This document shows, in pieces, positions 28,422-31,901 of a stretch of 64,000 nucleotides of DNA. The position numbers and the translations under genes are program-made. The notes below the pieces were generated by a model. The model saw nothing but the letters and a program-made list of their open reading frames with translations. It was not told the DNA's origin and searched no databases. Position 1 is the stretch's first letter; each line of letters opens with the position of its first letter. The DNA lies in NCBI RefSeq assembly GCF_002115785.1, contig NZ_JFJY01000003.1:310001-374000 (forward strand), given 5' to 3'. Origin of the DNA: Thalassospira sp. MCCC 1A03138 (lineage in GTDB: Bacteria > Pseudomonadota > Alphaproteobacteria > Rhodospirillales > Thalassospiraceae).

Positions 28422-28671
28422 TCTGTCCCGATAGACTTATTTAACGGTTGGCCGCATTTTCGCGCAGACCAATCCGTTTATTGTTTTAAGCCACTTGCCA
28501 AGCGTCTACCATATTTTCATTCTATACGCAGGTCGAAGACACCAAGGATCAGACAGCATGAAAAAATGGCATGGCTGTGATCGTTAAACGCACTTGTCAT
28601 AAAAATGTGCCAGCCTTACTCGAAGTTGAAAGCAATTTTTGCTGCTGCCACCCAAAAGCCGGAGGCCCCAC

Positions 28672-30645
28672 GTGAATTCGAACGCGACATCAAATTTCTC
28701 CCTGCCCGTCATCATCCGCACAGCAACCCGGTCCGATCTGGATGGCCTGTGCGCCCTTGAAGCTGGCAGCTTCACCAGCGATACGATTTCACGATCGGGC
28801 TTTTCACGCTTCCTGCGCCAATCTTCCGCCCGCCTTCTGGTCGCCGATGCCGGCGAAAGCGGCAAACCCGACATTGTCGGCTATGGCCTGCTTTTGCTGC
28901 GCGCCAATACGACAACCGCACGCATTTATTCGCTGGCGATTTCCGATAAATGGCGTGGCAAGGGCCTTGGCACCCAACTTCTGGCCGGGCTTGAAAACCT
29001 GGCGATTGATGCCGGATGTGTGCGTATCCGCCTTGAAGTGCGCGTTGAAAACAGCAATGCCCGCAATCTTTATGACCGCCACGGCTATCAACAGATTGCC
29101 GATCTGCCCGGCTATTACGAAGACGGTGCCGATGGCATTCGCCTGCAACATGATCTGTATGACATCCCGACCGAACGATCCCCCGCGGTCGCAACCGGTG
29201 CGCCGCTGATCCTTGTCGACCGGTTGAAAGATTTGCCGTTTCAGGTCCCCGGCGCACGCATCATGCGGGTGCGCGAATATCTTGCGCTTGATCATGGGGT
29301 GCGTAACCGCCGTGTCATCAACCTGTGCCAGTCCTATGAATATCTGTCACGCGGTTATTATTGCAGCTTGCTTGCCGCCGCACGCAGCGAACGCGTAATC
29401 CCCGAAGCAGACGTCCTTCTTGATCTGAACTGGAAACGGCTGCAAAAAACCGCACGCGCGGAAATGAGCCCGCAAATCGTCGAGGCCTTGGCCAAACCGG
29501 GCGATCACCCGACGAAGATCGACGTATTCTTTGGCCGCACCGTCGATAAACGCTTCCGCGATATCGCTCAACGCGCCTTTGACCAGTTCCGCTGTCCTAT
29601 CCTGCGTCTGCATCTGAACCCGTCGGACAAGAAAATCCTGCGCGAAATCGAAGCCCCGGCACTAAGCCAACTGGGTGCCGAAGACCTGCCCGCATTCGAA
29701 AGCGCCATCCGTGCCTATCTGCGCGGTCGCGTGCGCAAACCGGCATCTGGCGGCAACCCGCCAAGCGCGCTGGTGGCGATCCTGCATGATCCCGATGCGG
29801 TCCTGCCGCCATCCGATAGTGATGCATTGGCCCTGTTCATTCAGGCCGCCTCCGACCTTGGTGCCAAGGCCGAACTGATCACGGCCAAGGATTTCCATCA
29901 CCTGTCGGAATTTGATGCGCTGCTGATCCGCGAAACCACCGCCCTTGATCATCACACCTATCGCTTTGCCAAACGGGCGCGCAAGGAAGGCATTCCGGTG
30001 ATTGACGATCCGGACTCAATCCTGCGCTGCACGAACAAGGTGTATCTTGCCGAATTGCTGCGTACGCACCGTATTCCGGCCCCGCGCAGCATGATTTTCG
30101 ATAAACGCCGCATTGCCGAAATCGGACAGCAATTCAGCTTCCCATCGGTGCTCAAGGTACCCGATGGCTGCTTCTCGCGCGGGGTGCGCAAGGTGAAATC
30201 ACCCGAACATCTGGCCGAAGTCGCGACCGAGATGTTCAAAAATTCCGAACTTCTCGTCATTCAGGAATATGTCGAAACCACCTTTGACTGGCGCATTGGC
30301 GTTCTGGGGGGCGAGCCACTATTTGCCAGCCGCTATTTCATGGCGCCGGGCCACTGGCAGATCGTCAAACACGAAGACGACGGCAAATCGTTCGAGGAAG
30401 GCGGCTTTGAAACCGTCGCCGTCGAAGATGCCCCGGCTGATATCGTTTCCACAGCCTTGGCTGCGGCCCGCCTGATGGGCGATGGTCTTTATGGTGTCGA
30501 TATGAAAGAAACCCCGCACGGCCCGATGGTGATCGAAGTCAACGACAACCCCAACATCGACGGCGGGGTCGAGGATGTCGTGCTCGGCATGGACCTGTAT
30601 CGCCGGATCATCGCCCACCTTCTGGGCAAGATCGCGCGTCCGTAA
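28672..30645 (+). CDS. GNAT acetyltransferase fused to RimK-like ATP-grasp ligase
   Basis: About 657 residues. GTG 28672 is used because GGAGG (28661-28665) precedes it by 6 bases. Residues about 12-155 are a GNAT domain (acetyl-CoA loop WRGKGLGTQLLAGLE). A middle segment (about 180-345) corresponds to the RimK-associated N-terminal region. An ATP-grasp ligase (about 390-655) follows, with VLKVPDGCFSRGVRKV for ATP, IQEYVETTFDWRIGVLGG and the metal-binding MVIEVNDNPNIDGG. ATP-grasp enzymes of this class join an amino acid to a carboxylate through an acyl phosphate. The convergent neighbour is a GNAT/C39-like peptidase, a recurring partner. The product is unknown. Confidence 0.88.
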   Translation: MNSNATSNFSLPVIIRTATRSDLDGLCALEAGSFTSDTISRSGFSRFLRQSSARLLVADAGESGKPDIVGYGLLLLRANTTTARIYSLAISDKWRGKGLGTQLLAGLENLAIDAGCVRIRLEVRVENSNARNLYDRHGYQQIADLPGYYEDGADGIRLQHDLYDIPTERSPAVATGAPLILVDRLKDLPFQVPGARIMRVREYLALDHGVRNRRVINLCQSYEYLSRGYYCSLLAAARSERVIPEADVLLDLNWKRLQKTARAEMSPQIVEALAKPGDHPTKIDVFFGRTVDKRFRDIAQRAFDQFRCPILRLHLNPSDKKILREIEAPALSQLGAEDLPAFESAIRAYLRGRVRKPASGGNPPSALVAILHDPDAVLPPSDSDALALFIQAASDLGAKAELITAKDFHHLSEFDALLIRETTALDHHTYRFAKRARKEGIPVIDDPDSILRCTNKVYLAELLRTHRIPAPRSMIFDKRRIAEIGQQFSFPSVLKVPDGCFSRGVRKVKSPEHLAEVATEMFKNSELLVIQEYVETTFDWRIGVLGGEPLFASRYFMAPGHWQIVKHEDDGKSFEEGGFETVAVEDAPADIVSTALAAARLMGDGLYGVDMKETPHGPMVIEVNDNPNIDGGVEDVVLGMDLYRRIIAHLLGKIARP

Positions 30646-30665
30646 TGCATTCCAATCAAAATGAC

Positions 30666-30690
30666 AAAGGGCCGGTTTATCCGGCCCTTT
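30666..30690. terminator. Bidirectional terminator between convergent GNAT fusions
   Basis: AAAGGGCCGG (30666-30675) and CCGGCCCTTT (30681-30690) form a 10-bp stem with a 5-base loop, followed by a T run on the plus strand. It overlaps the stop codon of the minus-strand gene. Confidence 0.9.
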
Positions 30691-31789
30691 TTTCAATAAA
30701 TACCGCCGCCTGCAGCTTGTCCCGGCCATAACGAACCATAAGGTCAAACTCGTTGCGCAGGATCGGTGTCGATACGCAATCGCTGCCGCTGAACGGTTCG
30801 TGATCTTCGCCAATATCCGGATCGGTGACATAGACATAGCGGTCATCAAAACCCGAAACCACGACCCAGTGCGGGATTTTATCGCCGTAAATACGATACT
30901 GGCTGATCAGGACAAGCGCGATCTTGCCCTGTTTTGACCGCTCTTCGATCTCGGCAATGCTGAACGGCCCGGTGGTTACCGGAATACCGGCCTCGCGTGC
31001 CTGCCGGGCGAAATCATAATGCACCAGCTCGACAACTTCGCGGTTTTTGGGTTTACGCACCGTATCAACAAAAAGCGGCCCGTCACGGCTGCTTAAAACC
31101 TCGACATCAAATCCGCGTTTATGCGCCGCCAGTCCAAGGCCAAGCGGCCCGCAGCCGCCATGCCCCGATGTCATGAATACCGTGGTTGCCTCACGCCAAA
31201 GCGCAATTTCCTGATTGCGATCCATTTCGACATTGGGATCAAGCGCATTCATCGCCATCATCAATGCCGCCGGTCCACAGGTGAATGGCATGGTCTGGTG
31301 ATAAAAATGGATCGGCGATGGCCGACGCAGGGATTGCGGCACCAGAACACGTTCCATGCGCAGCGCGTCGGAATGATCGGGATAATAATCGGGATACAGG
31401 GCAAATTCGCGATATCCCGCCGCCTTGAACAATCCAATCGCCGTTTCGTTACCCGGGTTGACTTCAAGCCGCAGGATCGGGGCCCCGAAATCAAGGCTGA
31501 GTTCCTCGGCCCGGGTCAGGAGTGCCCGGCCGATCCCATGCCCGCGGTGCGCATCAAGGACCGCCATGGAATAAAGCCGTGCCATCGCGACGTTGGATCG
31601 GAAAATCACCAGGGCATAGCCGACAACCGCGCCATCGCGTTCGGCAACACAAAGGCGCGCCGTCTCGCTGCCCAGGAAACGCTTGAAAGCGCGGCGCGAC
31701 AGACGGTCGATCAAAAAGGATTGGTTTTCGATGGCACAAAGGGCATCCAGATCGCCCTCGACCGCCATACGAAGTGATAAGTCGCTCAA
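30677..31789 (-). CDS. GNAT acetyltransferase fused to C39-like cysteine peptidase
   Basis: About 370 residues. TTG 31789 is preferred because GAAGG lies 7 bases before it; GTG 31807 is the alternative. Residues about 1-145 form a GNAT domain (HRGHGIGRALLTRAEEL). The remainder is a papain-like C39 peptidase: nucleophile Cys in PFTCGPAALMMAMNAL (about 171), His in KIPHWVVVSGFDD, Asp in YVTDPDIGE. Unlike bacteriocin exporters it has no ABC or membrane part, so it would act in the cytoplasm. Both proteins of this convergent pair begin with related GNAT domains, which argues for shared work on one small peptide or modified protein. Confidence 0.86.
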   Translation of the reverse strand: MSDLSLRMAVEGDLDALCAIENQSFLIDRLSRRAFKRFLGSETARLCVAERDGAVVGYALVIFRSNVAMARLYSMAVLDAHRGHGIGRALLTRAEELSLDFGAPILRLEVNPGNETAIGLFKAAGYREFALYPDYYPDHSDALRMERVLVPQSLRRPSPIHFYHQTMPFTCGPAALMMAMNALDPNVEMDRNQEIALWREATTVFMTSGHGGCGPLGLGLAAHKRGFDVEVLSSRDGPLFVDTVRKPKNREVVELVHYDFARQAREAGIPVTTGPFSIAEIEERSKQGKIALVLISQYRIYGDKIPHWVVVSGFDDRYVYVTDPDIGEDHEPFSGSDCVSTPILRNEFDLMVRYGRDKLQAAVFIEKRAG

Positions 31790-31901
31790 AACGGCACCTT
31801 CAAACACATGGCATGCGCGCCATTGTCGCGCGCCGTGACCATATCGTTCTAATCCCTCGAAACTTAAAGTGCAATTTTGGCAGATGTGTCACGCAAAAAC
31901 G

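Follow-up and report, generated by a model that had tools for sequence, protein, structure and literature searches.

RLAN-type ATP-grasp ligases with alternative GNAT or GCS2 partners and a papain-like enzyme: a putative capped-peptide locus in Thalassospira

In this work, we analysed a two-gene locus of Thalassospira sp. MCCC 1A03138, which lies in a stretch of 64,000 nucleotides of contig NZ_JFJY01000003.1 (hereafter the window). One gene encodes a ligase that consists of a GNAT domain, an RLAN domain and a RimK-like ATP-grasp part, while the other encodes a second GNAT domain followed by the papain-like, C39-like domain DUF3335. RLAN and DUF3335 co-occur far beyond chance, the GNAT and not the peptidase is the most constant partner of the RLAN ligase, and in other loci a GCS2 ligase stands in the place of the GNAT. 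We tentatively propose that the locus makes an N-capped peptide in two steps and also supplies an enzyme for processing it. The pair is common, being present in 46 of 299 sampled genomes, and the GNAT/GCS2 exchange narrows the possible chemistry; the proposal, if true, would add a new class of small peptides, or else a new reversible tag, to those known.

Distribution of RLAN ligases and their alternative partners

The phylum sample of 299 genomes was scanned for both families. DUF3335 was found in 47 genomes and RLAN in 56, and the 46 genomes with both compare with about nine expected if the two were independent. In 44 of these 46 the two genes lie no more than 3 kb apart; the exceptions are G006, where they are 2 Mb apart, and G193, where they are on different contigs. 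RLAN occurred without DUF3335 in 10 genomes of the sample, and DUF3335 without RLAN in G008 alone. An earlier, preliminary description of the window, made from the sequence alone, had stated that the pair recurs in proteobacteria; this is borne out, and the idea that the two genes never co-occur elsewhere is refuted.

The partners of RLAN were classified at 176 loci, 175 of them distinct (L116 and L173 are duplicates of a single sequence). The set comprises 56 of the 59 RLAN places from the 299-genome scan, including the window, the 80 top-ranking of at least 587 RLAN matches from genome contigs, 20 of the 30 RLAN genomes in a sample from the phylum of L191 (a Balneolaceae locus), and 20 of 53 from a further sample. 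The last 40 loci were hand-picked with long reading frames favoured, so that the proportions given below are not those of a fair sample. Nine of the 176 loci are from Thalassospira and are not independent, several named loci come from metagenome bins whose labels are possibly wrong (e.g., L149), and five fetched loci that have DUF3335, with RLAN absent or not recognised, were left out.

A GNAT of the window's family was located within 4 kb of RLAN, or fused to it, in 138 of the 176 loci: fused to DUF3335 in 93, free in 24, and fused to RLAN in 21, comprising 12 without DUF3335 and the nine of Thalassospira with a GNAT on both proteins. A GCS2 ligase was found in 32 loci, mostly of other phyla, lying downstream on the same strand in 28 and fused in four. 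At L288, L289, L290 and L292, the RLAN ATP-grasp and GCS2 share one frame of 990–1028 codons, which directly links the two ligases, and an FGase gene follows in 18 of the 32 GCS2 loci. GNAT and GCS2 were never seen together (0 of 176 loci; independence would give about 25, without correction for kinship), and no GCS-type ligase was found at the window locus or any other of the 138 GNAT loci. Of the 40 loci in the two additional samples, 13 were GNAT versions from outside Pseudomonadota, and one GCS2 locus, L188, is labelled gammaproteobacterial. The GNAT profile was made here from DUF3335-fused GNATs and misses other types; thus, the gene that adjoins RLAN at L179:976-1524 encodes a GNAT that Pfam assigns to a different family, Acetyltransf_3, and may represent a further switch of capping enzyme.

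The peptidase is common yet dispensable, because loci with GNAT and RLAN lack it in 24 free-GNAT and 12 fused cases of the 176 and because DUF3335 was mostly not found elsewhere in such genomes. The DUF3335 profile (A6), searched without a positive control, had no match in 25 genomes with peptidase-free loci (23 of the GNAT type and two of the GCS2 type without a free peptidase, some of them incomplete bins). A search of 21 genomes whose RLAN does not adjoin DUF3335 (10 with free GNAT, two fused, and nine of the GCS2 or no-GNAT kinds) found PF11814 elsewhere in three, namely G302, G317 and, marginally, G306; G299 and G300 were in both searches. A version consisting of one protein is exemplified by the GNAT-RLAN ligase of Cohaesibacter (L137), in whose genome DUF3335 was not found. 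Of the 32 loci of the GCS2 type, 26 encode a free C39-like protein immediately upstream of RLAN and in the same orientation, and so does L168. Profile comparison by hhalign shows that this protein is a homologue of DUF3335 (probability 98, E 2e-13), and it carries the same Q, C, H and D set. It is present in 19 of 247 genomes from the phylum of L191, with RLAN directly beside it in all 19. Judging from these profile comparisons, a homologous papain-like enzyme appears to serve both the GNAT and the GCS2 versions.

Some further occurrences stand apart from these counts. The DUF3335 protein of G008 (L102:9682-10305) has no GNAT of the window's family fused to it. Extra DUF3335 proteins were seen at L103:5132-6193, L103:14188-15396 and L104:9744-10838, with no RLAN gene seen in these 20-kb loci; their N-terminal GNAT-like parts have low scores (98, 102 and 67 bits) and look degenerate. 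The archaeon Methanosarcina acetivorans, a control genome, gave a DUF3335 match and no RLAN match. Two genomes carry two RLAN loci each (L107 and L079 in G058, L108 and L109 in G062), one locus with GNAT-DUF3335 and the other with a free GNAT, which suggests two parallel versions.

The two Thalassospira proteins and their setting

The preliminary description had reported adjacent, convergent genes for a GNAT-headed ATP-grasp ligase and a C39-like peptidase, and Pfam matches agree with it; 31 bp separate the two open reading frames (ORFs). Positions are collected in Table 1. GTG 28672 is the likelier start of the ligase because GGAGG lies directly before it, and it is also where the preliminary description began the gene.

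Table 1. Features of the RLAN/DUF3335 locus (positions in the window)
Feature	Position	Strand	Remarks
GNAT-RLAN-RimK-like ATP-grasp ligase	28639-30645	+	668 aa from TTG 28639
N-terminal GNAT domain of ligase, RimI/Ard1-like fold	28702-29160	+	
RLAN domain with GYYCSLL motif	29272-29700	+	PF14401
RimK-like ATP-grasp catalytic part	30034-30615	+	
GNAT-DUF3335 papain-like (C39-like) protein	30677-31807	-	376 aa
N-terminal GNAT domain of peptidase protein	31331-31786	-	
DUF3335 papain-like domain	30695-31309	-	PF11814; Q171, C177, H313, D329 from conservation
Hairpin between convergent genes, possible shared terminator	30666-30690	.	Overlaps stop codon of peptidase gene

The ligase is predicted to be of the RLAN type, as PF14401 scores 123.5 bits (cut-off 25) and is followed by a RimK-like ATP-grasp domain (PF08443, 33.1 bits, cut-off 21); its GNAT domain scores 59.4 bits with PF00583. 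K467, K506, D550, R552, D621, E633 and N635 (window numbering) are invariant in 55 aligned ligases, and the ligase profile can be aligned with RimK and LysX of known structure, so that the predicted ATP- and Mg-binding residues of an ATP-grasp enzyme are apparently present. Structure comparison gave LysX, ArgX and RimK as the closest fold matches. Nevertheless, the ligase cannot be counted as RimK, the S6 glutamate ligase: it stays below the TIGR00768 cut-off (79.4 vs 143.4 bits), and a separate true RimK is encoded elsewhere in the genome (272.5 bits). The ligase of T. lucentensis (L130) is 100% identical over the 480-residue query and 98% over the whole protein.

In the second protein, DUF3335 ('Peptidase_C39 like', PF11814) scores 271.7 bits (cut-off 25) and the GNAT domain 60.7 bits. 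Among 50 aligned GNAT-C39 proteins, Q171, C177 and H313 show no variation and D329 is conserved in at least 90%; in a more diverse set of 23 sequences the first three remain invariant, while the conservation of D329 drops below 90%, some distant rows having Glu. The domain can thus be assigned to DUF3335 by both its score and its predicted Q-C-H-D set, and the catalytic residues that the preliminary description had pointed out in both proteins are upheld by the alignments. It had also called the two GNAT domains related; they are 42% identical over 148 columns. Neither reaches the TIGR01575 cut-off for RimI (75.7 and 72 vs 86.4 bits), which another gene in the genome passes (87.1 bits), and membership of RimI, the S18 N-acetyltransferase, was rejected. 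The Pfam matches of the two proteins include no ATP-binding cassette (ABC) domain, in line with the lack of an export domain noted before, and those of the peptidase protein include no PF03412; on the former ground, and on the outcome of the small-ORF survey given below, a C39 peptidase of a bacteriocin-processing transporter was rejected as well.

A GNAT on each protein and a convergent arrangement were seen only in Thalassospira, to which all nine convergent loci belong. On a quick RLAN tree (119 rows after near-copies of the 176 were dropped; support from the Shimodaira–Hasegawa-like approximate likelihood ratio test, SH-aLRT, only), the window RLAN groups with the GNAT-RLAN fusions of Cohaesibacter, of a bin labelled Thermoplasmatota and of two genomes from the phylum of L191 (support 98). 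A second GNAT-RLAN clade of seven rows is nested within the GCS2 class, and the tree requires at least four changes between GNAT and GCS2. On a quick and weakly resolved GNAT tree of 101 rows, the RLAN-fused copy of the window clusters with a free GNAT and three RLAN-fused GNATs that are not from Thalassospira (support 84), while the peptidase-fused copy groups with peptidase-fused GNATs (support 88). A recent tandem duplication of the GNAT is not supported, as the copies lie in different groups and share 42% identity. The Thalassospira locus looks like a composite of two older lineages, namely a self-sufficient GNAT-RLAN protein and an added GNAT-DUF3335 gene of the common type.

The hairpin between the genes has 10 pairs, seven of them G-C, and a T-rich tail on the minus strand, although the terminator scan overall gave no excess (six terminator-like sites vs 5.2 in shuffles). 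Because it lies between the genes and overlaps the second stop codon, the two genes are probably transcribed and terminated separately. The neighbouring genes encode a TamA-like Omp85 protein and a sulfate permease (Pfam), and beyond the Omp85 gene lies a 1472-codon ORF that we take to be TamB; none of the three is among the 40 most widespread flank clusters listed. Flank genes were predicted with a simple purpose-written gene caller. No third gene family is constant across 60 loci and the window. The next most widespread families reach eight of 24 family groups, compared with 23 for the GNAT/RLAN/C39 cluster; by sequence they resemble common sensor and ABC ATPase proteins, and their distance from the locus is as much as 10 kb, or about 30 kb in the window. 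A survey of 1750 small ORFs from 169 loci gave 12 largest groups that are each confined to one genus or genus-level group, the sole exception being the pair L116/L173 already named as a duplicate, and the statement that no precursor gene is recognisable therefore holds within this survey. Rfam and tRNA scans gave no match.

Plasmid searches returned sparsely annotated Azospirillum and Tistrella records with both genes. Large Azospirillum replicons also carry RLAN ligases, as do plasmid records of Pseudomonas aeruginosa and of Legionella adelaidensis, so that the ligase may be mobile. A phage protein family search yielded acetyltransferase matches of a general kind and a single weak match for the ligase.

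A putative route to capped peptides and competing explanations

In the proposed route to an N-capped peptide, the GNAT would acetylate an amino acid or short peptide on its amino group. The RLAN ATP-grasp, to judge from its fold and conserved residues, would then activate a carboxylate of the capped molecule with ATP and join a further amino acid to it, like RimK, LysX and ArgX, and the papain-like domain, carried on a second GNAT copy, might hydrolyse or transfer the product, either for turnover or for final trimming. Because GCS2 stands where the GNAT would be in many relatives, the cap there may be gamma-glutamyl instead of acetyl. Given that GNAT and GCS2 can both act on a free alpha-amino group, the substrate of the shared ligase is most likely amine-capped, and given that no third family is constant and no small ORF recurs widely, it is probably something every cell has. 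GCS2 enzymes are small-molecule gamma-glutamyl ligases, and both GCS2 and FGase are families associated with free amino acids and small peptides; the replacement of GNAT by GCS2, which FGase often joins, favours a small N-capped peptide over a protein tail. The preliminary description had suggested acetylation, ligation and cleavage of one peptide or protein tail. Linked acetylation and ligation are supported by our results, whereas the peptidase is not obligate and a 'tail' is too narrow a term in view of GCS2 and FGase.

It is conceivable, on a more tentative footing still, that RLAN ATP-grasps form the core of a widespread and unnamed class of capped-peptide pathways whose first enzyme is exchangeable, being either an acetyl-CoA-dependent GNAT or an ATP-dependent GCS2. 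The products would be intracellular N-acetyl or gamma-glutamyl peptides (a thiol, osmolyte, nitrogen store or signal), turned over by papain-like enzymes, in many Pseudomonadota, Planctomycetota and relatives of Balneolaceae. As the GNAT-RLAN protein of Thalassospira is joined by a second, peptidase-bearing GNAT, its product may be capped or trimmed twice.

Several observations weigh against a capped peptide. The GNATs are most like RimI and Ard1, which are protein N-terminal acetyltransferases, and RimK and LysX act on protein C-termini, so that a protein target fits equally. The mutual exclusion of GNAT and GCS2 partly tracks phylum, and the independent exchanges possibly number only four. 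Six of the 176 loci have neither partner, namely L121 (cut by a contig end), L084 (whose GNAT-DUF3335 gene is on another contig, L083), L179 (beside a GNAT of the other Pfam type), L164 (from a genome with DUF3335 elsewhere), L168 (with the free peptidase only) and L162, for which we have no explanation. The GNAT profile overlooks types such as that of L179. Finally, although the model of the peptidase protein has a predicted local distance difference test (pLDDT) score of 89.9, its GNAT part fills the structure match lists and swamps the search for the papain fold.

Some of these points would equally suit a reversible protein modification, in which the GNAT acetylates, the ATP-grasp adds amino acids to protein ends and the papain-like domain removes them, comparable to RimB and RimK acting on S6. 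The nearest structures (RimI/Ard1 and RimK/LysX/ArgX) belong to enzymes of protein ends, and the lack of a linked substrate gene is expected if the target is a common protein. A protease opposing RimK is described in the accessible part of PMC12239564. However, the enzymes that take the place of the GNAT or accompany it elsewhere, GCS2 and FGase, are from small-molecule families, the would-be eraser was not found in many genomes with GNAT and RLAN, and the true RimK is already encoded in the Thalassospira genome. On balance, we regard a protein modification as unlikely, while still the most serious competitor of the capped peptide.

A unit making a secreted or antagonistic compound, such as a small peptide antibiotic or protease inhibitor, would be in keeping with the patchy distribution of RLAN (56 of 299 genomes) and with the ability of ATP-grasp enzymes to make such products, for example E-64 (available text of PMC12568646). 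We consider it improbable, since no dedicated exporter or regulator accompanies the genes and the next flank families are the sensor- and ABC ATPase-like proteins mentioned above. The small-ORF survey and the Pfam matches led us to set aside a pathway for a ribosomally synthesized and post-translationally modified peptide (RiPP) or bacteriocin with a C39 leader peptidase, even though RiPP clusters do contain C39-like folds, GNATs and ATP-grasp enzymes: a mere 31 bp lies between the genes, the peptidase protein has neither an ABC domain nor PF03412 among its matches, and no precursor-like ORF extends beyond a genus among the 12 largest groups (one located at a distance could still exist). Such a pathway is very improbable. 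Least credible of all is that two unrelated housekeeping genes adjoin by chance in Thalassospira; convergence and the intervening hairpin would allow it, but RLAN is present in 46 of the 47 DUF3335 genomes and adjoins in 44 of 46.

Comparison with known systems

The literature searched, outside which most subscription papers lie, contained no functional study of RLAN or DUF3335 and no assigned product for the pair, as the preliminary description had supposed. The classification paper PMC10318531, in the part available to us, notes frequent fusions of DUF3335 with GNAT and cites Iyer et al. 2009 (Mol BioSyst 5:1636) for a possible role as a peptide ligase or in acetylation. A functional guess for DUF3335-GNAT fusions is therefore already in print, and the window protein fits the fusion type so described.

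The principle of a ligase with a peptidase is known from RimK-RimB and the rlo operon (PMC12239564, as far as its text was accessible). Like RimK-RimB, the window pairs a RimK-like ATP-grasp ligase with a peptidase; it differs in the additional RLAN domain, the GNAT partner, the papain-like rather than retropepsin-like peptidase and the RimK score below cut-off. With the rlo operon it shares the idea of ligase and peptidase and not the domains. ATP-grasp genes of the R2K.3 type are found in operons with GNAT genes in Streptomyces, Herpetosiphon and Acaryochloris (PMC4431377), and the window resembles them in this linkage; R2K.3, however, is a different ATP-grasp clade, and the text of that source available to us names neither RLAN nor papain. 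The R2K_3 match of the window ligase is below threshold (22.2 vs 26.3 bits).

N-acetylated dipeptides are made by acetylation plus ATP-grasp ligation in the N-acetylglutaminylglutamine amide (NAGGN) synthetase, a GNAT-ATP-grasp protein (TIGR03103), and in mammalian NAT8L with RIMKLA, which make N-acetylaspartylglutamate (NAAG). The window shares the GNAT and ATP-grasp combination with them. Nevertheless, it does not encode an NAGGN synthetase, as nothing in the genome reaches the TIGR03103 cut-off; the best score is 24.4 vs 569 bits, at another place and not at the window ligase. In glutathione synthesis, a GCS-type ligase (GshA) acts before an ATP-grasp (GshB), and the papain-like phytochelatin synthase acts on the product. 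The GCS2 version of the RLAN loci, with its GCS2, ATP-grasp and papain-like enzyme, is like this set, whereas the window has a GNAT instead of GCS2 and a ligase nearer to RimK and LysX than to glutathione synthase.

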